Below are positions 1,190-38,616 of a stretch of DNA of 64,000 nucleotides, in pieces. How positions within the stretch are numbered: position 1 is the first letter of the stretch; every line of letters starts with the position of its first letter. The stretch is from Streptomyces asiaticus (GTDB lineage Bacteria; Actinomycetota; Actinomycetes; Streptomycetales; Streptomycetaceae): the NCBI RefSeq assembly GCF_018138715.1, contig NZ_JAGSHX010000006.1, forward strand, positions 4,402,001 through 4,466,000, written 5' to 3'. The translations under genes and the position numbers were made by a program. The notes under the pieces were generated by a model. The model searched no databases and had not been told where the DNA came from. It saw nothing but the letters and a program-made list of their open reading frames with translations.

Positions 1190-1280
1190 GCTTACGACGA
1201 TATCGGGGACCACGGACAACGGGCCCACACCCACATCCCCACACCCCCCGCGGCCCCCCGCACCCCCCCAAAGACGCAAG

Positions 1281-1376
1281 GGGCCCCTCACGCACCCGCC
1301 AGAGCTCACTTACCCTTGCTGCCTTCCGGCCCTGGGGGAGTTCGGTGAGATAGCGCCACGTGAGGGGCTGGCCCCC
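1281..1376 (-). ncRNA. ffs: Signal recognition particle RNA, small bacterial type (4.5S)
   Basis: The minus strand carries the invariant SRP domain IV, with the GGAAGGCAGCAAGGG-type tip (GNAR loop and asymmetric internal loop). It is enclosed by a long stem in which CCCCTCACG near the 5' end pairs with CGTGAGGGG near the 3' end. The RNA binds Ffh and directs membrane proteins to the translocon. Ends are set by the outer stem and may be off by a few bases. It lies about 90 bp upstream of dnaX. Confidence 0.93.
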
Positions 1377-1445: not shown

Positions 1446-1530
1446 GGAGGATTCGCCTAGAGGCCTAGGGCGCACGCTTGGAAAGCGTGTTGGGGGCAAC
1501 CCCTCACGAGTTCGAATCTCGTATCCTCCG
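1446..1530 (+). tRNA. tRNA-Ser (anticodon GGA)
   Basis: The acceptor stem GGAGGAT pairs with ATCCTCC. The anticodon loop reads CTTGGAAAG (anticodon GGA), followed by a long variable arm typical of class II tRNASer and a TTCGAAT T loop. CCA is not encoded. The 3' 53 bases, from the anticodon loop onward, are part of a 55-bp repeat found again at 7540-7594, so this gene is the attachment site of an integrated element that rebuilds the full tRNA on insertion. Confidence 0.96.
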
Positions 1531-1532
1531 CA
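1478..1532. repeat. attL-type 55-bp direct repeat
   Basis: Identical over all 55 bases to 7540-7594. It begins in the anticodon loop of tRNA-Ser(GGA) and ends 2 bases past the tRNA. Flanking bases diverge immediately on both sides. Confidence 0.92.
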
Positions 1533-1534
1533 GC

Positions 1535-1584
1535 CGCCTGAACAGGCGAAACGAGGAGCTGGACCGCAACGAGCGGTCCAGCTC
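1535..1584 (+). terminator. Hairpins downstream of tRNA-Ser, inside the island
   Basis: Two inverted repeats follow the tRNA. One is a short CGCCTG/CAGGCG hairpin at about 1535-1548. The other is a 12-bp perfect stem, GAGCTGGACCGC at 1556-1567 with its complement at 1573-1584 and a 5-base loop. They probably end tRNA transcription and come from the island, replacing the host terminator now displaced to 7614-7647. Confidence 0.6.
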
Positions 1585-1598
1585 TTCGGCGTGCCTTG

Positions 1599-1616
1599 GT
1601 TGCAGTTTCGGTTGCA
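1599..1616. repeat. Paired GGTTGCA heptamers near attL
   Basis: GGTTGCA occurs at 1599-1605 and 1610-1616. The same pair, with 12-bp instead of 11-bp periodicity, occurs at 7425-7443 just inside attR. Their symmetric placement and helical spacing suggest arm-type recombinase binding sites. Confidence 0.45.
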
Positions 1617-1630
1617 TCTATATACGACAT

Positions 1631-1855
1631 TTAAGATATTCCCTCAAGCAGGAAAGGCGCACGCTCACGTCCTATGGGGCGACCGGCGCAGACTGCGGGG
1701 AGCCACACCAGCTGACGGGATACGTCACGACGGTTACCGGCCGCCAGGACCCACACGATGAGTCGGCCGTCCTCAACGGCGTGGACGAAGAGGCAGTCGC
1801 CGCCCCGAGCCGCCAGCAGGCATTGCACCCCGCGGAGTTTCTGCACCGAACGCAG
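1631..1855 (-). pseudogene. RelE/ParE-type toxin, C-terminal remnant
   Basis: A minus-strand frame of about 74 codons reads QKLRGV, then VEDGRLIVWVLAAGNRRDV. This is the layout of the C-terminal half of RelE/ParE ribonuclease toxins, where a KLxGV motif, a GDYRVxY strand and a DGxLxVLVLxVGHRRDVY strand follow one another. The usual GDYRVVY has become GGDCLFVH, and HRRDVY has become NRRDVS. The N-terminal half is absent, because an in-frame stop lies just upstream at 1856-1858. No antitoxin gene is attached. It is most likely a dead toxin-antitoxin relic in the island, and I infer no activity. A chance resemblance cannot be excluded given the short match. Confidence 0.4.
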
Positions 1856-1968
1856 TCATGCTCCCGCATCCGTCGATGCCTGGTTCCCCCATCACGAGTG
1901 GGCCTGCGGCGACTCTGGCCTCGGCGGATCCACACGGATCTGTCCATGGTCCCGGGACGATGTCGCGG

Positions 1969-2370
1969 TCACAGCCCGATCATCCGGGCCTTGCTGCCGC
2001 ACAGCCGGGTCATGTCATCGACATCCGACGTGAGGATGGCGACCGGGCCGGGCTGGCGCAAGGCCGCTTCCGCGACGGTGGCGTCGATCGCGTACTTGTA
2101 TCCGTGCAGACCGGCGTCCTTGAGCAGTTGGGCCGCCGCCTTGGCCGCCGCCTCCGTGACCGGCTCCACCTTGACCCGGGAGAGCGCCCATTGCAGTCGG
2201 GCCAGGTTCACCCGGGCGTGGCTCACCTCCACGATGGTGTTGGCGCTGACGACAAGGTCCGCTCCCATGTCGTGGAACACCTGGAACATCGCCAGAACCT
2301 TCCGGTTCTGCGCCACCCAGGCCGACAGCCCCTCGCTGTCCAGGACGACGGTCTCGATGTGCCCGCTCAC
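1969..2370 (-). CDS. PIN-domain ribonuclease, VapC-like toxin
   Basis: A 133-residue single PIN domain, the usual size for VapC toxins, which cleave RNA (often tRNA) with Mg2+. The acidic quartet is visible: D11 (VVLDSEG), E48 (NTIVEVS), D96 (YAIDATVAE) and D116 with D118/119 (LTSDVDD). The GTG start overlaps the stop of the upstream ribbon-helix-helix gene by 4 bp (GTGA), so the two are translated together, antitoxin first. It lies in the tRNA-Ser island, where such pairs often stabilise the element. Assignment to a PIN nuclease is firm; the VapC role is inferred from size and partner. Confidence 0.85.
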   Translation of the reverse strand: MSGHIETVVLDSEGLSAWVAQNRKVLAMFQVFHDMGADLVVSANTIVEVSHARVNLARLQWALSRVKVEPVTEAAAKAAAQLLKDAGLHGYKYAIDATVAEAALRQPGPVAILTSDVDDMTRLCGSKARMIGL

Positions 2371-2615
2371 GCGGCGCTCGCGCCGCCGGCGGCCGACGTC
2401 GTGCCGAAGATCCGCGCCCGCGCTTCGGCCAGCTCTTCCTCGCTGAAGGCCCCGTGCTCGTCTGTGTGGCTGCGCAGGTCGGCTCCCAGGAGCTGGTGCC
2501 GGATCTGTCTGGCGACCGCCTCGGCCACGTAGCCGGAGATGTTGTCCATGATCTTCTTCAGCTCCGCCACCTGCTCGGTGGGGAGTGTCACCGTGATGCG
2601 TGTGGTGTCAGCCAT
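2367..2615 (-). CDS. Ribbon-helix-helix antitoxin (CopG/VapB-like)
   Basis: The first 45 residues read as a ribbon-helix-helix domain: the strand TTRITVTLP is followed by helices with VAELKKIMDNISGYVAEAVAR. An acidic C-terminal tail (DEHGAFSEEELAEARARIF) would wrap the toxin. RHH antitoxins bind their promoter as dimers and neutralise the partner nuclease. I start at the ATG at 2615 (82 aa). An ATG four codons upstream sits inside the palindrome at 2624-2639 and would give 86 aa. The 3' end overlaps the PIN gene by 4 bp, making a two-gene operon, presumably autorepressed through that palindrome. Confidence 0.85.
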   Translation of the reverse strand: MADTTRITVTLPTEQVAELKKIMDNISGYVAEAVARQIRHQLLGADLRSHTDEHGAFSEEELAEARARIFGTTSAAGGASAA

Positions 2616-2623
2616 AGCCGCAA

Positions 2624-2639
2624 GCATACTGCGGTATGC
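2624..2639. promoter_or_regulatory. Candidate operator of the RHH/PIN operon
   Basis: The inverted repeat GCATAC-N4-GTATGC has perfect 6-bp arms and lies 8 bp upstream of the antitoxin ATG. Its size and position suit autoregulation by an RHH dimer pair. Confidence 0.5.
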
Positions 2640-2739
2640 GCGCTACGTGCTGTCCGTTCCCCGCAGTCCCTCCGGTCAGCGGCAGTCGAACTGTCCGTTC
2701 GAGCAGGGGCTCAGCCGGGCAGTTGTACGACGCGCCAGT

Positions 2740-3051
2740 TCAGCGGGCCCAGTAGCGGTATGCCTCGATCCATTGCGAGCCCTCGGGGGCGGGTTCCGGC
2801 AACGGCAGGTCCAGAATTCCGATGTCCTGTCGGACCGACCCCCGGGCGCAGCGTGCGACCAGGCGCCCGTCCTCGGCCAGGTCGACACCGACCACGCTCA
2901 CCTCGACGCCGAGAACAGTCGTGGTGAACGGCACGGCAAGACTCTCCTCGATCACCGTGAAGAAGCCGGTGAGCTGCTCGTCCTCGCCGTAGGCATCGAC
3001 GGTGGCCTCTTCGATCAACGCCTCCAGCGCGGCTGGGTCCCAGGTGCTCAT
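2740..3051 (-). CDS. CcbP-like calcium-binding family protein
   Basis: A 103-residue acidic protein with no signal peptide or membrane segment. Its central part (LTGFFTVIEESLAVPFTTTVLGVEVSVVGVDL) and the ending (ILDLPLP, then EAYRYWAR) match my memory of a compact family related to cyanobacterial CcbP, a low-molecular-weight Ca2+ buffer of heterocyst cells. In actinomycetes the role is unknown. It starts at an ATG at 3051 and is transcribed away from the helicase gene, sharing the intergenic region at 3052-3189. It lies inside the tRNA-Ser island, so it is probably transferred cargo. Family assignment is from recall, not from a search. Confidence 0.6.
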   Translation of the reverse strand: MSTWDPAALEALIEEATVDAYGEDEQLTGFFTVIEESLAVPFTTTVLGVEVSVVGVDLAEDGRLVARCARGSVRQDIGILDLPLPEPAPEGSQWIEAYRYWAR

Positions 3052-3189
3052 AGCCTCACCGTAGCGCTGCGCCCGTACGGTTGAGGACCGGTGTGTTCAG
3101 CAGCGGCGTATCCGTCGTGGCACCGTCACCGGCAGTCAAGCCAAGGCCCCCGGTTGCCAGGGTGTGACATCGCCTGGTGGGGTTCGGTA

Positions 3190-6123
3190 GTGAGCGGCCC
3201 GGGGAGGGTCCGGCAAGCGACAGGGCGGAAGAGAGTGGCACGAGTCGTCGTACGAGAGCCGAGTACGGGCGCGAGGGGCGCACCGCCGCTGGCCCGGCAG
3301 GAAACGTCCGCCTTCGTGAGGGAGCTGCTCGGCGCCGGCTGGGCGGCGGTGTTCCTGCCCGGTGAGCCCGCCCGCCTTGGGCGGCTGCTGCTGTGGAAGC
3401 CGACCGGGGCAGCAGCCGGAGACAGTATGGCGCCCACCGGCTTCGAGACCGAGGCGGTGAAGCTGGTCCTGCCGCACGGCCGCTCGGTCAGGCGGCGCCG
3501 GGTCGAGGGTTACGCGCTGCCTGTCGCCGTCGCTGTCTCCGTCCTGGCCGATGCGGAGCCGACGCATCCCTCCGGCGCCGCCTGGCAGGCCGCCACTCGC
3601 TTCGCGCTGCGGCTGCTCGCCGACGGCCGCCTCCACCCGGCCCTCACCCCCGCCGGTTACGACACCTGGCAGGTGGGTCCTTTCACCGCCGCCCAGCGCC
3701 AGACGCTGGACGCCCTGGCCGCCGCCTTCCCGCCCCACGCCCACTGCCTGCCCGAGCCAGGCCCTGCGCCGGTACGGATCGCCGAACCGGCTGCGCTGGT
3801 ACGCCAGTTCTGCGACGCGGTCGCCGATGATCTGGTCCGTACCCCGGCCGCGCCGCTCGCCATGGGAGCGCTGCCGTACGCCTGGCGCGAGGCCCGTGCC
3901 GTGCCCACCTTGCGTGAATGGGCCGAGGAAACCCAGGCGGCGCTCACCGCCGAGGTCAGTGTCTCCCTGCGCGTCGACGTACCCGAAGGACGCCGACGGC
4001 AGTTCCGGGCGGTCCTGCAACTGCACACCGCGGCGGACCCGGCGCTCGTCATCGAGGCCGCACGGCTGTGGAGCGAGCCGACCGAAGTGGAGCGGCTGCT
4101 CGGCCCGCGCGCCGAGACCGAGACCCTGCTCGCCCTGCGCCGCGGCGCCCGCGCCTGGCCCCCGCTGCGGAGGCTGCTCGACGATGCCGCTCCCGATCAG
4201 CTCCGGTTGACCGACGACGAAGCCTTCGATCTCCTCGGGGACGCCACAGACGCGCTGCGCACGGCCGGTGTCGACGTGCACTGGCCGCGCGACCTGGTCA
4301 AGGCACTCACCGCGACCGCGGAGATCGGGCAGCGCACCGCCCCCGGTTCCACCGCGGGCGGCCTGCTGGACACCGAGGCCCTCCTCGACTTCCGCTGGCA
4401 GGTCTCCCTCGGCGGCGAGCCGCTCACCGAGGCCGAGATGGATGCTCTCGCGGAGTCACGCCGTCCCCTCGTCCGGCTTCGCGACCAGTGGATGGTCGCC
4501 GACCCGAAGCTGGTGGCCCGCGCCAAGCGCCGCCGGATGGAACCGCTCACCCCCATGGAGGCGTTGAGCGCCGCGCTGACCGGCGAGGTCGAGCGGGACG
4601 GCGACCGGGTCCCCTGCGCGGCGGTCGGTGCGCTCGGCGACCTGGTCGCTCGTATCCGCGCCCCCGAGTCCCGCACCCCCGTGCCCCAACCCGCCGCCCT
4701 CAAGGCCACGTTGCGCGAGTACCAGAAACGGGGCCTGGCCTGGCTGGCCGAGATGTGCGCACTCGGCCTCGGCGGCTGTCTCGCCGACGACATGGGTCTG
4801 GGCAAGACCGTCACCTTGCTCGCTCTGCATCTGCACCGCCAGAGCGATCCCACCACCGCGGGCCCCACCCTTGTCGTCTGCCCGGCCTCCCTGCTCGGCA
4901 ACTGGCAGCGCGAGGCCGCCAGATTCGCACCGCTCACCCCCGTACGCCGATACCACGGCGGCGACCGCCACCTGGGGGACCTGGCCGGCGACGAGATCGT
5001 CCTGGTCACCTACGGGGTGCTGCGCCGCGACCGCGAAGTGCTCGCCGAGACAGCCTGGTCGCTGGTGGCCGCCGACGAGGCCCAGCACGTCAAGAACCCC
5101 TACGCCGTCACCGCCCGCGAACTGCGTGCCCTGCCCGCCCGCGCCCGTGTCGCTCTCACCGGCACCCCCGTGGAGAACAACCTCTCCGAGCTGTGGGCAC
5201 TGCTCGACTGGACCACTCCCGGGCTGCTCGGCACACTCACCGCCTTCCGTGACCGGCATGCCCGTGCCATCGAGGCGGGCGAGGATCCCGAGGCAGCCGA
5301 GCGCCTGTCCCGTCTCGTACGTCCCTTCTTGTTGCGCCGCAAGAAGTCCGACCCCGGCATCGCGCCCGAACTGCCGCCCAAGACCGAGACCGACCACGTC
5401 GTTCCGCTGACGGCCGAGCAGACCAGCCTGTACGAGGCACAGGTCCGCGAGACCATGGCGAAGATCGCGGAGTCGGAGGGCATCGCCCGACGCGGTCTGG
5501 TACTCAAGCTGCTCACCGCGCTGAAGCAGATCTGCAACCATCCCGCCCAGTATTTGAAAGAGCACGGCCTGCGCCAGTCCACTCCCCTGCGGGGCCGCTC
5601 CGGCAAGCTCGACCTGCTCGACGAACTTCTCGACACCATCACAGCCGAAGGTGAATCCGTGCTGGTCTTCACGCAGTACAAACAGATGGCGGCCCTGCTG
5701 GAGAAGCATCTCGCCGAGCGCGGCGTCCCCGCGCTCTTCCTGCACGGTGCTACCCCTGTCGCGCGGCGCGAGGAGATGGTGGACCGCTTCCAGCGCGGTG
5801 GAGTGCCGGTGTTCCTGCTGTCGTTGAAGGCGGCGGGCACCGGACTCAACCTCACCCGCGCCAGCCACGTCGTGCACTACGACCGCTGGTGGAACCCGGC
5901 CGTCGAGGAGCAGGCCACCGACCGCGCCTACCGCATCGGCCAGGACAAACCCGTCCAGGTGCACAAGCTCCTCGCGGAGGGAACCGTGGAGGACAAGGTA
6001 GCGAAGCTGCTCGAGGCCAAGCGCGCCCTCGCCGACGCCGTCGTCGGCTCCGGCGAGGCAGCCCTGACCGAACTGTCCGACGCCGACCTCGCCGAACTCG
6101 TCGCCCTGGGAAGGCAGTCATGA
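3190..6123 (+). CDS. SNF2/Rad54-family DEAD/DEAH-box helicase
   Basis: About 977 residues. The N-terminal ~500 form the bacterial SNF2-associated region with no recognisable motif. The helicase core follows: Walker A DDMGLGKT at about 533-540, DEAQ box at 629-632, motif III LTGTPVENN, and the C-terminal half with AAGTGLNL and QATDRAYRIGQ at about 908-918. It is a DNA translocase that probably remodels protein-DNA complexes; bacterial members are tied to transcription recycling or phage defence. The frame is open from 3091; the GTG at 3190 leaves room for divergent promoters with the CcbP-like gene, and a GTG at 3235 after GGAAGAGA is also possible. Its TGA overlaps the ATG of the SWIM gene (ATGA), so the two proteins are made together. 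It is cargo of the tRNA-Ser island. Confidence 0.93.
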   Translation: MSGPGRVRQATGRKRVARVVVREPSTGARGAPPLARQETSAFVRELLGAGWAAVFLPGEPARLGRLLLWKPTGAAAGDSMAPTGFETEAVKLVLPHGRSVRRRRVEGYALPVAVAVSVLADAEPTHPSGAAWQAATRFALRLLADGRLHPALTPAGYDTWQVGPFTAAQRQTLDALAAAFPPHAHCLPEPGPAPVRIAEPAALVRQFCDAVADDLVRTPAAPLAMGALPYAWREARAVPTLREWAEETQAALTAEVSVSLRVDVPEGRRRQFRAVLQLHTAADPALVIEAARLWSEPTEVERLLGPRAETETLLALRRGARAWPPLRRLLDDAAPDQLRLTDDEAFDLLGDATDALRTAGVDVHWPRDLVKALTATAEIGQRTAPGSTAGGLLDTEALLDFRWQVSLGGEPLTEAEMDALAESRRPLVRLRDQWMVADPKLVARAKRRRMEPLTPMEALSAALTGEVERDGDRVPCAAVGALGDLVARIRAPESRTPVPQPAALKATLREYQKRGLAWLAEMCALGLGGCLADDMGLGKTVTLLALHLHRQSDPTTAGPTLVVCPASLLGNWQREAARFAPLTPVRRYHGGDRHLGDLAGDEIVLVTYGVLRRDREVLAETAWSLVAADEAQHVKNPYAVTARELRALPARARVALTGTPVENNLSELWALLDWTTPGLLGTLTAFRDRHARAIEAGEDPEAAERLSRLVRPFLLRRKKSDPGIAPELPPKTETDHVVPLTAEQTSLYEAQVRETMAKIAESEGIARRGLVLKLLTALKQICNHPAQYLKEHGLRQSTPLRGRSGKLDLLDELLDTITAEGESVLVFTQYKQMAALLEKHLAERGVPALFLHGATPVARREEMVDRFQRGGVPVFLLSLKAAGTGLNLTRASHVVHYDRWWNPAVEEQATDRAYRIGQDKPVQVHKLLAEGTVEDKVAKLLEAKRALADAVVGSGEAALTELSDADLAELVALGRQS

Positions 6124-7355
6124 GCCCCGCTGTCCCCGGACCGCGCCATGCGCCCGCCCGCGGCAAGCGAGCCTTCGCAGCGACCTGGTGGGGCCAGGCA
6201 TGGGTGGCCGCCCTGGAGGACTCCACCCTGGACGCCGGACGGCTCTCGCGCGGACGCACCTACGCCCGCAAAGGCATGGTCGGCCCGGTCACCGTCGCTC
6301 CGGGCAAGGTCAATGCCGCTGTCCAGGGCAGCCGCCCGCGCCCGTACCGCTCCTCAGTCCACCTGCCCGTCCTCACCAACCCGCAGTGGGACACCCTGCT
6401 CGACACGATCGCGGCCCGCGCCGGACATCTCGCAGCACTTCTCGACGACGAGATGCCCGCCGAACTCGTGGACGACGCCCGGCACGCAGGCGTCCCACTG
6501 CTCCCACTGCCCACCGAGCTCGATCCGGAGTGCTCCTGCCCCGACTGGGGATACCCCTGCAAGCACGCCGCCGCCCTCTGCTACGCCATCGCCGCCACCA
6601 TCGACACCGACCCATTCGTGCTCTTCGCGCTGCGCGGCCGCGGTCGCGAGGAGGTCTTCGCCCAGCTGCGCGCACTCCGTACGGCAGCACAGGACACCTC
6701 CGCCCCACCGGCACCGGCCGGCATCCCGGCCGCCGCCGCGTACGCCCACTGGGCCGAAGAGCCCCCCGAACTGCCCGAACTCCCGGAACCCGCCGCCCAC
6801 ACCACAGCACTGCCCGTCGCCCCGCCGCCCGGCAGCGGCCTGGCCGCCGCGGACCTGGAACGCCTCATGGCCGACGCCACCGCGCGCGCCGCCCGGCTCC
6901 TCACGGGCGACACCGCCGACCTGCACCTGACCCAGCACCAGGACGCCGTCCGCATCGCCGCAAGCAACCCCGGACCCGAGTGGTTCCACCACCTGATCCA
7001 GAACACCGGCACCAACCCCACTGCCTTCGCACGCCTCACCCGCGCCTGGCGCCACGGCGGCCCCACGGGCATCACCGTCGCCGAACAGCCCTACACCCCC
7101 GACCCGACGGTGATGAAGGCCGCCCGCACCGCCCTGGGCACGGCCCTCTCCGAGATGACCGACTCCGCCACACACCTCAGAGCCTGGCGCAACCGCCTCA
7201 CCCTCACCGACCACGGCATCCAGCTGCGTCTGGGCCCCGACGCCCGCTGGTACCCCTACCTCCAGGACGACGACGGCGAATGGTGGCCCGCGGCACCAGC
7301 CGACAGTGACCCAGTCACCGCGCTCACCGCGGCCTGGTCGCAGAACGGGGAGTAA
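6120..7355 (+). CDS. SWIM zinc-finger protein, partner of the SNF2 helicase
   Basis: 411 residues. The SWIM motif C-x-C-x6-C-x-H is at about 138-149 (CSCPDWGYPCKH), a zinc-binding fold found beside SNF2 ATPases in bacteria and in eukaryotic DNA-associated proteins. The N-terminus contains a WWGQAWVAALE segment typical of these partners. A Pro/Ala-rich linker near 195-240 leads to a C-terminal helical half without recognised motifs. The ATG start overlaps the helicase stop by 4 bp. The likely role is DNA or protein contact for the translocase; this is inferred from the pairing, which also occurs elsewhere (B. subtilis YwqA/YwqB, from memory). It ends about 185 bp before attR. Confidence 0.88.
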   Translation: MSPAVPGPRHAPARGKRAFAATWWGQAWVAALEDSTLDAGRLSRGRTYARKGMVGPVTVAPGKVNAAVQGSRPRPYRSSVHLPVLTNPQWDTLLDTIAARAGHLAALLDDEMPAELVDDARHAGVPLLPLPTELDPECSCPDWGYPCKHAAALCYAIAATIDTDPFVLFALRGRGREEVFAQLRALRTAAQDTSAPPAPAGIPAAAAYAHWAEEPPELPELPEPAAHTTALPVAPPPGSGLAAADLERLMADATARAARLLTGDTADLHLTQHQDAVRIAASNPGPEWFHHLIQNTGTNPTAFARLTRAWRHGGPTGITVAEQPYTPDPTVMKAARTALGTALSEMTDSATHLRAWRNRLTLTDHGIQLRLGPDARWYPYLQDDDGEWWPAAPADSDPVTALTAAWSQNGE

Positions 7356-7424
7356 CGAGGCGATTCCCCGCTGCCCAGGAATCACGAGCAGAGGCTGGAC
7401 ACACTCACGCTGCTCCACTTCCGT

Positions 7425-7443
7425 GGTTGCAGTTCTGGTTGCA
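7425..7443. repeat. Paired GGTTGCA heptamers near attR
   Basis: Copies at 7425-7431 and 7437-7443 mirror the pair near attL at 1599-1616. They are candidate arm sites of the missing recombinase. Confidence 0.45.
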
Positions 7444-7539
7444 TTCACCGGCGTACAGCACCGTTCAGAACCCCTGCCCGGACCAGCTGCACCGCAGGTC
7501 AGGACATTGCCGTACGCCCCAGAACCCCCGGACGAACAT

Positions 7540-7594
7540 TTGGAAAGCGTGTTGGGGGCAACCCCTCACGAGTTCGAATCTCGTATCCTCCGCA
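7540..7594. repeat. attR-type 55-bp direct repeat (partial tRNA-Ser)
   Basis: An exact copy of 1478-1532, containing the 3' half of tRNA-Ser(GGA) with no 5' half, so it is not a functional tRNA. It marks the right junction of the island. Confidence 0.92.
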
Positions 7595-7679: not shown

Positions 7680-8201
7680 CTAACTCAGCAGTTCCAGCGC
7701 TTGCTCCCACCGGAAGGTGTCGCGACCGCCGCCGGCCTTCGGCTGGTGCGGCTCGTAGTCGGCGATCAGCACGCCCATGCCCCGTAGCCGCTCCAGACTC
7801 TGCTGGTAGGCGGGGTGGGCGGCCTGGGCGGCGTTCAGATAGGGCAGGGCAACAGTTGGGACCCCCAGCCCGTACGCCTCACACAGGATGCCCACCGCCA
7901 GAGTGTCCGAGATCCCGGCGGCCCACTTGTTGATCGTGTTGAAGGTCGCCGGGGCGACAGCGATGGCATCGGGAGGCGGGAGGGGGCGCGGGGCGCCGGG
8001 CGAGCGCCAGGCGGAGCGTATGGGGTAGCCGGTCTGGGCCTCGACGGCCTGGGCGTCGATGAAGCCAAGGCCCTGCGGGGTGGCGATGACGCCGACGTCC
8101 CAGTCCCGCTCCTGCGCCGCGGTGATCAGCTTCCCGACGTCATCGGCGATCCCGGCCGCACAGACGACGACGTACAGGAACGGCTTGCTGCGCTCGCTCA
8201 T
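7680..8201 (-). CDS. Flavoprotein, PPCDC/HFCD superfamily
   Basis: 173 residues with the Rossmann-like fold of FMN-binding decarboxylase-type flavoproteins (CoaC/EpiD superfamily). There is an N-terminal LYVVVCAAG strand-turn, a central PPDAIAVAPATFNTINKWAAGISDTLAV segment matching the conserved APATxNTxxKxAxGxxD signature, and an ALPYLNAAQAAHPAY region. Stand-alone members like this are common in Streptomyces beside XRE-type regulators and their substrate is unknown. Its start overlaps the upstream regulator fragment by 4 bp, so the pair formed an operon. The promoter side has been cut by the ISL3-family element, so expression may now be altered. Confidence 0.85.
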   Translation of the reverse strand: MSERSKPFLYVVVCAAGIADDVGKLITAAQERDWDVGVIATPQGLGFIDAQAVEAQTGYPIRSAWRSPGAPRPLPPPDAIAVAPATFNTINKWAAGISDTLAVGILCEAYGLGVPTVALPYLNAAQAAHPAYQQSLERLRGMGVLIADYEPHQPKAGGGRDTFRWEQALELLS

Positions 8202-8499: not shown

Positions 8500-8531
8500 G
8501 GTTCTGGCACAGATCTTGGGGAGCGGTCGCG
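8500..8531. repeat. ISL3-type terminal inverted repeat, left
   Basis: A 32-bp perfect inverted match to 10271-10302. The transposase stop codon lies 6 bp inside it. Confidence 0.9.
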
Positions 8532-8536
8532 CAGGG

Positions 8537-10141
8537 TTACTGAAGCAGGATCATCTTGCGGAGTAGTTCGAATCCGGCTCGTCCGTAGAGCTGCCTTTTG
8601 ATCTTTTTGATGCGGTTCACGGCGCCTTCGGTGCCGCCGGAGCTCCAGTGCAGAGTGAGGCCAGCGGTCACGGCGTCGAGGTCGCGGAGCATATGAAGTG
8701 CGAAGTTGGTGAGGCCGGGCAGCTGGCTGGCGTCGACGGCGTTGATCCAGGCGGGGAGCGTGGGGCCGAGGCGGTTGGTGAGGATCTCGCCGAAGTCGCG
8801 GACGTGTCCGGCCGCGGTGTCCAGTTCGGGGCAGCGGGCAAGGACGTCCTTCAGCGCGGCGCGCTCTTCTTCGCTCAAGGCCGTGGGGTGGCGGGTGAGC
8901 CAGCCAGTGACCTGCCGCACCGTCGGCGGCGGAGGCGGCGCCTGTGGCGGGGCGGCGCGAAGGGTGGCGATGTAAGCACGGACCATCTGGTAGGTGACGG
9001 GGGCGTTCTCGGTGAGGAGTTCGCGGTGCAGACGGGTGACGCTCGTGCATCCCGCGGCGAACCGCCGTTCCAGGTAGGGCTTGTAGGGGTCCAACCGGCT
9101 GGGCCGGGGCCGGTTTTCGCGGAGGGTGTCCTGCCAGTGTGCGGCCCGCGCGTATCGAAGCACGGTGTTGAGGCCCCAGCCCAGGTGGCGGGCGATTGCC
9201 CGGCGCGAGTGGCCCTGGGCGAGCAGTTCATGGACCAAGGCGTGCGCGGCCTTCTTGCGCTGGGCCCGTCGACCTTCAAAGGACGGGACAACGGGCTCCG
9301 AGTCGTCCAGTGGCATGTCAGCGTTCGTCGGGCTGATCGGTGCCGGAGTGCGCAGGCACTCGCGGTGGGCGGCGACGCAGGTCTCCACGGCCCGGCCGAT
9401 GCCTTGCCACAGGTGGAACCGGTCGGCGACCTGGAGCGCGTTGGGGGCGCCCAGCCGGGCTCCTTCGGCGTAGGCGCCCGCACGGTCCCGGCAGATGATC
9501 TCCACGCCCGGATGGGCGGTCAGCCAACCAGCCAGTGGACCCGCCTCGCGGGTCGGGAGCACGTCGATCATGCGATGGGTTTCTCCGCAGGTCAGGACGG
9601 TGGAGTAGGTCTGGCCCCGGCGGATGGCGAAGTCGTCCACGCCCAGCACGCGCGGAGTGCCGGCCTGCGGGTCGGGCAGCGCGATGATCCTGCGTAACAA
9701 GGTCATCCTGCCTGCGCAAAGGCCGAGTTGACCAGCCAGCCGGGCGCCGGCCCGACCGGCGAGTGCGAGCCCGACGCGCTCCAGGACGCGGTTGAGCCGT
9801 GTGGTGAAACGCGAGTACGGAGTCGTCAACTGCGCGAACTGCTCGGCGAACGTACGACGCGGGCAGTTGTCCGCGCCGCAGATGAATCGCCGGACCGTCA
9901 GATGGATCACGACGCTCTGCCCACCGAGCGGCAGATCCTTCAGTTTGCGCAGGTAGGAGTCATGCACCCGGTCCGAGGAGCGGCCGCAGTCGGGACATGC
10001 GGCATTGGCCGCCCGGCCTCTGGCCCTCATGTCGATCGTGCCGAAGGCGGCTGTCGCCGCCTCGAGGTCCACGTCGTCGATCCCGTCGAACACGAGAGAG
10101 TCCCAGAACGATGCGTCGGCCTGCATGACCAGCACCGTCAC
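8537..10141 (-). CDS. ISL3-family transposase
   Basis: 534 residues. The N-terminal zinc ribbon is seen as CPDCG and later CGADNCPRRTF. The DDE catalytic core follows: first Asp in VLGVDDFAIRRGQTY, second in IICRDRAGAYAEGA, and Glu in SSGGTEGAVNRIKKIKRQLYGRAG, the ISL3/DUF-type DDE_Tnp signature. A helix-turn-helix insertion (HSRRAIARHLGWGLNTVLRYAR) lies between the second Asp and the Glu, as in many actinobacterial copies. GTG at 10141 and ATG at 10126 are alternative starts. The frame is complete and the catalytic residues are intact, so the element may still move. Confidence 0.93.
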   Translation of the reverse strand: MTVLVMQADASFWDSLVFDGIDDVDLEAATAAFGTIDMRARGRAANAACPDCGRSSDRVHDSYLRKLKDLPLGGQSVVIHLTVRRFICGADNCPRRTFAEQFAQLTTPYSRFTTRLNRVLERVGLALAGRAGARLAGQLGLCAGRMTLLRRIIALPDPQAGTPRVLGVDDFAIRRGQTYSTVLTCGETHRMIDVLPTREAGPLAGWLTAHPGVEIICRDRAGAYAEGARLGAPNALQVADRFHLWQGIGRAVETCVAAHRECLRTPAPISPTNADMPLDDSEPVVPSFEGRRAQRKKAAHALVHELLAQGHSRRAIARHLGWGLNTVLRYARAAHWQDTLRENRPRPSRLDPYKPYLERRFAAGCTSVTRLHRELLTENAPVTYQMVRAYIATLRAAPPQAPPPPPTVRQVTGWLTRHPTALSEEERAALKDVLARCPELDTAAGHVRDFGEILTNRLGPTLPAWINAVDASQLPGLTNFALHMLRDLDAVTAGLTLHWSSGGTEGAVNRIKKIKRQLYGRAGFELLRKMILLQ

Positions 10142-10270
10142 CGGTTATGGCCGACCGTGACCGAGTTGGCCGCATGCCTGACGGCGCGTCACCCTCGCCT
10201 GGTAGGCGGCATGGCGTACGCGGTCTCACGCCAACCCGAACCCTCGCAATCGAACACCGCGGTGACGCTC

Positions 10271-10302
10271 CGCGACCGCTCCCCAAGATCTGTGCCAGAA
10301 CC
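10271..10302. repeat. ISL3-type terminal inverted repeat, right
   Basis: Perfect 32-bp inverted partner of 8500-8531. Confidence 0.9.
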
Positions 10303-38524: not shown

Positions 38525-38611
38525 GGTAGCGTGTCCGAGCGGCCGAAGGAGCGCGCCTCGAAAGCGCGTGAGGGGGCAACTCCTCCGTGGGTTCAAATCC
38601 CACCGCTACCG
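38525..38611 (+). tRNA. tRNA-Ser (anticodon CGA)
   Basis: The acceptor GGTAGCG pairs with CGCTACC. The anticodon loop CTCGAAA gives CGA. A long variable arm and the TTCAAAT T loop complete a class II serine tRNA. No CCA is encoded. Confidence 0.96.
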
Positions 38612-38616
38612 CTCAC

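Follow-up and report, generated by a model that had tools for sequence, protein, structure and literature searches.

A recurrent integrase-less island at the tRNA-Ser(GGA) gene of Streptomyces that may be mobilised by the integrases of one AICE clade

Background

In the sections of PMC5704250 that treat them, cis-mobilisable elements (CIMEs) are described as retaining attL and attR without integration or transfer genes, and as decay products of integrative and conjugative elements (ICEs) or integrative and mobilisable elements (IMEs). Accretion of actinomycete ICEs (AICEs) and defective AICEs (DAICEs) at a tRNA gene in Streptomyces is documented in parts of PMC9513070 and PMC3218068; the elements counted in the portion of PMC9513070 concerned had traB, with traB regions of 11.9-36.2 kb. 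The CIME concept, tRNA accretion and defective Streptomyces AICEs are already known from these sources (PMC5704250, PMC9513070, PMC3218068). Here we describe a 6.06-kb island at the tRNA-Ser(GGA) gene in a 64-kb stretch of Streptomyces asiaticus (NZ_JAGSHX010000006.1), referred to as the window. G000 is the genome from which the window comes; other G and L labels denote other genomes and loci. From sequence comparisons, the island is likely to be a non-autonomous, site-specific, CIME-like element moved, in trans or in tandem, by the tyrosine integrases of one AICE clade, designated clade D below.

Like a CIME, the island has attL and attR, lacks integration and transfer genes, and stands in tandem arrays with conjugative elements at a single site. 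It differs in that a single gene set recurs across about 20 species, and in that units of unrelated cargo have in common a left end not seen in clade-D AICEs. The island also occupies the same kind of hotspot as AICEs and DAICEs, and its core, arms and right end are those of clade-D AICEs, but it has neither an integrase nor any other AICE gene. In a literature search that did not extend to most subscription journals, we found nothing on integrase-less genomic islands of Streptomyces, and no report of recurrent, horizontally spreading integrase-less units with common termini at tRNA-Ser(GGA).

Ends of the Island and Its Target

The target and termini of the island are as follows.

1446..1531, + strand: intact tRNA-Ser(GGA), the integration target (ARAGORN)
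1478..1532, + strand: left att repeat (attL core), the 3' half of the tRNA, identical to 7540-7594
1598..1617, + strand: left arm-like site GGTTGCAGTTTCGGTTGCAT, at a distance from the core that is constant in many units
1625..1632, + strand: left-end box CGACATTT, 9 nt beyond the arm, from comparison of unit left ends
7425..7444, + strand: right arm-like site GGTTGCAGTTCTGGTTGCAT, from repeat search and comparison of units
7493..7506, + strand: right-end block CGCAGGTCAGGACA, from alignment; also in the right end of the integrase-bearing clade-D element of G189
7540..7594, + strand: right att repeat (attR core), with CGAACAT, a clade-D type flank, just before it; from the direct repeat and end alignment

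The two att repeats are 55 nt long, identical and 6,062 bp apart from start to start, exactly as a preliminary description of the locus had stated, and they begin at the anticodon loop of the tRNA. A 22-mer from the 3' end of the repeat, searched with up to three mismatches, occurs twice in the 64 kb, against an expectation of zero from shuffled sequence. Inside both ends of the island (1598-1617 and 7425-7444) lies the repeat GGTTGCAGTTNNGGTTGCAT, also found twice with none expected, which looks like an arm-type integrase site. Upstream of the tRNA gene are a small signal recognition particle (SRP) RNA gene (1276-1372, minus strand) and dnaX. A second tRNA-Ser gene (CGA) is present in the window at 38525-38612.

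Between its ends the island carries five genes, for a PIN-domain protein, a CcdA-like antitoxin, a CcbP-like protein, an SNF2 helicase and a SWIM zinc-finger protein. An HMM scan of six-frame peptides of at least 25 residues across the first 12 kb of the window detected neither an integrase nor a remnant of one. The set of integrase, replication and TraB genes that characterizes an AICE was not found: the integrase scan was negative, and all five genes have other Pfam domains, although no separate search with Rep or TraB profiles was made. What is present is the combination that characterizes a CIME, with attL and attR retained, no genes for integration or transfer among the five, and no integrase remnant. 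The repeats, the tRNA gene and the negative scan together bear out the earlier proposal of a site-specific island without a recombinase of its own.

AICEs at the Same Site

The preliminary description had suggested looking for longer versions of the island with an integrase gene, and longer neighbours with such genes are present at the same tRNA-Ser site in other genomes. Integrases at the loci were identified by clustering and HMM, and identity sorts the 18 that were compared into four clades.

Clade A: G129, G209, G073, G184, G019 and the first unit of G010
Clade B: G007, G205, G173, G179 and G217
Clade C: G032 (broken), G106 and G160 (twice)
Clade D: G189, G081 and the second unit of G010

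The tyrosine integrase genes near the left core lie about 0.1-0.6 kb from it in clades A-C and 1.5-9 kb from it in clade D. The integrase-bearing clade-D units with both cores measure 22-48 kb (G081 22, G189 24, G010 32, S. bluensis 36 and G237 48 kb). In the clade-D AICEs at L243 (G239:C15, about 75.1-76.9 kb) and L250 (G237:C49, about 21.5-23.2 kb), the integrase is distant from the left core and opposite to the orientation, relative to the tRNA, seen in G189 and G081.

The bases to the left of the right core follow the integrase clade, because ACAT precedes this core in all five integrase-bearing clade-D units whose right end was seen (G189, G010, G081, S. bluensis and G237) and in none of the 14 units of clades A, B and C that were mapped. 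The S. asiaticus island has ACAT at this position. Its right end and arms match clade D, and over about 150 bp the right end aligns with that of the clade-D AICE of G189. The island and a clade-D AICE also occur together in one tandem array: in S. bluensis (NZ_BMVM01000015.1), the tRNA gene is followed by a clade-B AICE (11.1 kb), a clade-D AICE (35.9 kb), a clade-A AICE (19.8 kb) and an island of the SNF2/SWIM type (5.8 kb).

Recurrence and Horizontal Spread

The island is not a one-off relic; close copies occur at the same place in about 20 other species. In a sample of 199 Streptomyces genomes, relatives of the SWIM gene at about 78% identity or more were found in nine genomes besides G000. 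The island is at the same tRNA-Ser gene in G195 and G174; in the other seven, the stretch taken contained no tRNA-Ser core (that of G142 is an 8.6-kb contig, and the SWIM gene of G012 is split). The two parts of the G012 gene lie 1.07 Mb apart (G012:C1:7475539-7476228 and 6402488-6403072), which suggests that a large rearrangement took place through the cassette.

A scan of named genomes, which may overlap with the G-labelled ones, gave 77 loci, 22 of them with the att sequence. The SNF2 gene is found in all 22 att loci, the PIN gene in 18, the antitoxin gene in 17 and the CcbP-like gene in 19; 20 have a left core, 15 a right one, 13 both cores and 16 both arms. Hosts include S. tailanensis, S. 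olivaceoviridis, S. purpureus, S. adelaidensis, S. alanosinicus, S. typhae, S. bluensis and S. tuirus. Eight loci are bounded at 5.5-6.05 kb (L162, L165, L166, L170, L172, L182, L207 and L211). In five others (L168, L171, L200, L202 and L227) the cores are 7.2-13.3 kb apart, probably through loss of a neighbouring core or fusion with another unit. Decayed copies are found at L214, L227 and L234, and in L187 the only core lies 5 kb to the right. Between the arms, none of the 22 att loci gave an integrase match. The one integrase remnant between cores, in L171, lies to the left of the left arm, and the integrase sequences of L166 and L168 belong to adjoining units.

We compared ten loci (45 pairs, which are not independent), excluding those in which the dnaX, SNF2 or SWIM piece covered less than 85% of its length; dnaX was the sole core-gene yardstick. 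Nucleotide identity is 88.1% for dnaX, 94.0% for SNF2 and 93.5% for SWIM, with SNF2 above dnaX in all 45 pairs and SWIM in 42. At 4-fold sites the respective values are 62.9%, 87.6% and 88.8%, and both island genes exceed dnaX in every pair. Identity of the island genes shows no positive correlation with that of dnaX (r = -0.20). Because 4-fold-site identity is so far above that of dnaX, the island appears, most simply, to have moved horizontally between species after they had split.

Part of the island is matched by 23 plasmid records, none of them over 80% of its length. Two large linear plasmids, of Streptomyces sp. NBC_01136 (L264, 8001-9042) and NBC_01384 (L265, 8001-9025), carry internally deleted copies in which the PIN and antitoxin genes are fused to the right end with its arm and att site, and SNF2 and SWIM are nearly all gone; two other plasmids match about 66% of the island at 86% identity. 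A phage satellite was considered and rejected: no phage record matched in the near-match search mode, and the one exact pattern tried, an arm plus ATTYA, did not occur in viral contigs.

Other Integrase-less Units and Their Termini

The arm pattern occurs at 46 sites in 30 of the 199 genomes, while the reversed control gave none. Besides the island of G000, we found 13 core-bounded units of 2-8 kb that have ACAT and other cargo and lack a full integrase. The units below are all core-bounded with ACAT and have no integrase match except where given.

G000: 6.06 kb
G219: 6.15 kb and 3.3 kb
G022: 7.6 kb
G164: 3.2 kb (integrase remnants of 18 and 38 residues) and 3.6 kb
G130: 3.1 kb
G151: 4.4 kb
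G086: 8.1 kb
G109: 3.6 kb
G168: 4.7 kb
G063: 3.6 kb
G006: 2.0 kb
G069: 2.5 kb

A further unit, in G193 (4.1 kb), retains a 225-residue integrase remnant, and bounded integrase-less units without ACAT also exist (G204, G120, G207 and G099). The exact 27-bp core is present in 195 of 199 Streptomyces genomes, about 70 of which have two or more copies by hand count. The site is thus an insertion hotspot that holds a single copy in many genomes.

Ten proteins of these units were scanned with Pfam and ten with PADLOC. The first unit of G219 has VapB and PIN genes by Pfam; by eye, G022 and G063 have similar open reading frames (ORFs) and G109 has one that is VapB-like. Proteins with Helicase_C_3 and WYL domains are encoded in the G151 and G063 units, and G219 has a 2OG oxygenase and a Helicase_C_3 protein. 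The G130 unit encodes DUF234, above the cut-off, with AAA domains; ATPase_2 matches below the cut-off were obtained for the second G219 unit and for G164, with similar ORFs by eye in G086 and G006. The G219 ATPase matches the PADLOC candidate PDC-S27 (E 3.6e-17). AAA ATPase proteins encoded in units at this tRNA were located at L084 7025-8545 (the PDC-S27 match), L081 4784-6367 and L133 8965-11337, one of them with DUF234.

Over about 150 bp, the right ends of the integrase-less units align with that of clade-D G189 (arm, TTCAC...CGT.CAGC, CGCAGGTCAG.AC and CGAACATTTGG). The left ends differ. AGTT directly follows the left arm in 9 of 9 integrase-bearing clade-D units and in 0 of 12 integrase-less units (p 3e-6), whereas CGACATT[C], with at most one mismatch and at an offset of 9 from the arm, is found in 8 of the 12 and in none of the 9 (p 0.005). 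These p-values are optimistic, because the 12 units were hand-picked (G069, G193, G195 and the first G164 unit were omitted) and are partly related, several of them having cargo in common and so not being independent. The box is absent from the second G164 unit, G109 and G168, and the match in G151 is weak and shifted. Of 14 further SNF2/SWIM islands, 10 have an exact CGACATT after the arm and the other 4 have it with a single mismatch. Integrase-bearing left ends beyond the nine have AGTT in S. bluensis and G237 and AGTC in Streptomyces sp. SM11; the left end of G193, AGTC, is close to this type. A strict left-end pattern was found in 6 of 392 genomes and missed G000, and does not serve as a census. 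In a variant of the arm, seen in some units at one end or at both, GGTCTC...GGTCTC stands in place of GGTTGC (L079, L094, L080, L096, L140, L141 and L142; G022 and G168 are mixed), and this variant is also seen at the left end of clade-D elements in G025, G202 and G035.

The distinct left end is the main hint that the integrase-less units may form a lineage of their own rather than a set of independent deletions. We tentatively suggest, at somewhat less than even confidence, that the units at tRNA-Ser(GGA) are a family of AICE satellites: small and integrase-less, with their own conserved terminus (the arm followed by approximately ATTTATAGGCGACATT) and the right end and arms of clade D, they would swap cargo and spread by capturing clade-D integrase and transfer functions. 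The cargo sets of the proposed satellites are the PIN pair with SNF2/SWIM, VapBC with helicase/WYL, and AAA ATPase/DUF234.

Mobilisation and Its Alternatives

The model of mobilisation by clade-D AICEs sets out from what is observed: the ends, the missing integrase, the recurrence and horizontal spread, the sites in common with clade D, and the tandem with a clade-D AICE in S. bluensis. The island has attL, attR and an arm-like integrase site at either end, and no recombination or transfer gene. The tyrosine integrase of a clade-D AICE that uses the same core and arms would most likely perform excision and integration in trans; alternatively, the island may leave as part of a tandem array that behaves as one unit. 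Transfer would be by the machinery of the clade-D AICE or along with a larger DNA transfer, and the PIN toxin-antitoxin and SNF2-SWIM genes would travel as cargo. Which integrase acts and the route of transfer are inferred from sequence. The earlier idea that a recombinase is needed in trans gains support from the att and arm sites common to one AICE integrase clade.

Several observations weigh against this model. A clade-D integrase was not found in G000 (best match E 8e-23, with 9 of 37 first-look candidates scored). A full-length one (77-86% identity) was found in only 4 of the 22 other hosts searched (20 that bear att, plus L169 and L192), with a broken one in one more; among the 199 genomes, ten have a full-length clade-D integrase at 78% or above. 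That the helper turned up in a minority of the hosts is what one would expect of a dependent element, but also of a relic. Since the right core was not found in 7 of the 22 att loci, is mutated in G195 and is missing in G174, many copies may be fixed. The difference in the left end after the arm means that recognition of the island by a clade-D integrase is not certain. Six loci (L114, L116, L117, L119, L129 and L136) have an arm without a core in the fetched stretch, so an arm alone is no proof of an island at tRNA-Ser(GGA).

Nor is there a precise empty site in the relative compared. In line with the preliminary description, which had suggested a search for an empty tRNA-Ser site, G188 has one tRNA core, with 97% identity across 100 bp around the tRNA, and no island genes within the 8 kb compared. 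Its flank is colinear with the window from 10538 onward at 85-94% identity, and as a relative without the island it speaks for an insertion. However, G188 is not precisely empty: between the tRNA and this common flank it has 3.4 kb of other DNA, of which 47 bp match the flavoprotein gene of the window. At the corresponding place, just beyond the right att, the window has the flavoprotein gene (7680-8201) and, adjoining it, an ISL3-type insertion sequence (8500-10302) whose 41-bp terminal inverted repeats are 93% complementary. The right flank of the window had no match above 200 bp in any of the 24 other loci compared.

The scarcity of clade-D integrase among the hosts, the missing right cores and the state of G195 and G174 would also fit a single AICE that was stripped of its genes for integrase, replication and transfer and whose remnant is now inherited vertically, and decayed or partial integrases are indeed frequent at the site (G164, G013, G193, L171 and L168). 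Such a remnant would be hard to reconcile with synonymous-site identity that is far above that of dnaX and independent of it, with the lack of any integrase remnant between the arms in 22 loci, with a left end unlike that of clade-D AICEs, and with island positions that differ among tandem arrays. As for the origin by ICE or IME decay that is described for CIMEs, the right end of the island is common with a clade-D AICE and the left end is not. We regard vertical inheritance of a decay product as quite improbable, and mobilisation by clade-D integrases as the likely account.

Cargo Genes

1969..2370, - strand: PIN-domain toxin-like protein (Pfam), intact in 19 of 24 other copies
2367..2627, - strand: CcdA-like antitoxin (Pfam), intact in 19 of 24 other copies
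2740..3051, - strand: CcbP-like protein (Pfam), intact in 10 of 24 other copies
3091..6123, + strand: SNF2 helicase of the SCO1167/SCO6262 family (Pfam, NCBIfam)
6120..7355, + strand: SWIM zinc-finger protein (Pfam)

The identities given in the preliminary description stand, with the PIN protein (23.1 bits against a Pfam cut-off of 23.6) and the CcdA-like antitoxin (21.0 against 22.4) slightly under their thresholds and the CcbP-like protein above its own (24.3 against 21.5). The translations retain the acidic residues of the PIN protein, GLGKT and DEAQ in the helicase, and CxC...CxH in the SWIM protein, at positions that we take to be hallmarks of the three families. The helicase has SNF2 and DUF3670 domains. 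Relatives align with it from about residue 38-49 onward, so that the true start is probably not 3091 but 3235. In the 24 other copies (the 22 att loci, G195 and G174), the SNF2 ORF is intact in 22 and the SWIM ORF in 20; the CcbP-like gene, intact in so few, is probably dispensable. The PIN pair resembles VapBC-type toxin-antitoxin systems in that the PIN protein has a small overlapping upstream gene, and differs from them in that the antitoxin is CcdA-like and both matches are just below cut-off. The pair probably acts as a stabiliser that penalises loss of the island. A relative of the PIN/antitoxin stretch, at 78% DNA identity, lies elsewhere in the genome (G000:C6:4804026-4804666, L145); the surrounding 9 kb contain no tRNA-Ser core.

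The helicase is a member of the NCBIfam family SCO1167/SCO6262 (NF058637), scoring 1468.1 bits against a cut-off of 1200, and stands next to a SWIM gene. It is below the curated cut-offs for ZorD (306.9 against 1500), DrmD (70.7 against 610) and DpdE (46.8 against 500), and the closest solved structure by sequence is 1z63, an SNF2/Rad54 helicase. SWIM relatives are present in 196 of 199 Streptomyces genomes, and G000 itself has a second SNF2/SWIM pair, a paralogue at 70% DNA identity. The island pair forms an island-borne branch: its SWIM is 87-95% alike among the att loci, save the decayed L227, versus 45-51% for many of the chromosomal copies listed. A similar neighbourhood of SNF2, SWIM and VapBC genes presumably exists in mycobacteria.

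The preliminary description took this cargo for a possible unrecognised defence unit, a claim that is weakly supported at best. The family assignment and the failed cut-offs speak against it, as do the near universality of SWIM relatives in Streptomyces, a PADLOC match restricted to the helicase core, and the rarely intact CcbP-like gene. The related proposal, that SNF2/SWIM and PIN form a conflict unit of the anti-phage or anti-element type, borne by a small defence island, can draw on the likeness of that helicase core to ZorD and DpdE, on the PDC-S27 match in a sister unit, and on one sentence of a review (PMC5512222) in which SWIM-associated SNF2 ATPases are placed among mobile conflict systems and called widespread in them. 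It is also favoured by the PIN gene, which is upstream and divergent at 18 of the 22 att loci and at 9 of 23 loci elsewhere with SWIM at 75% or more, but this linkage fades to 2 of 32 in more distant relatives. That no phage record matches the island in near-match mode says nothing on function. Taken together, a conflict unit is unlikely.

A tentative alternative, which we rate somewhat below an even chance, is that the island's SNF2 and SWIM genes branch off from the usual chromosomal pair, act like YwqA and are passive cargo. The paralogue in the same genome is consistent with this. According to the parts of the reports concerned, the SNF2 translocase YwqA of B. subtilis was among the proteins enriched, together with RNA polymerase subunits, when PcrA was pulled down (PMC3797733), and is listed among the interactors of RNA polymerase (PMC7385302). 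YwqA, a putative orthologue, is the nearest functional lead for the pair. Passive carriage leaves unexplained why such genes stay intact on an island. The pair probably acts as a translocase on DNA or on stalled transcription complexes.

Implications

Units of this kind would be missed by surveys that take traB or an integrase as their starting point, as those in the sections of PMC9513070 and PMC3218068 considered here do. Elements without a recombinase are usually taken for dead remnants; the one described here has kept most of its genes intact and spread across a genus. This genus-wide spread, the mostly intact genes and the termini common to other integrase-less units make mobilisation in trans by AICE integrases directly testable.

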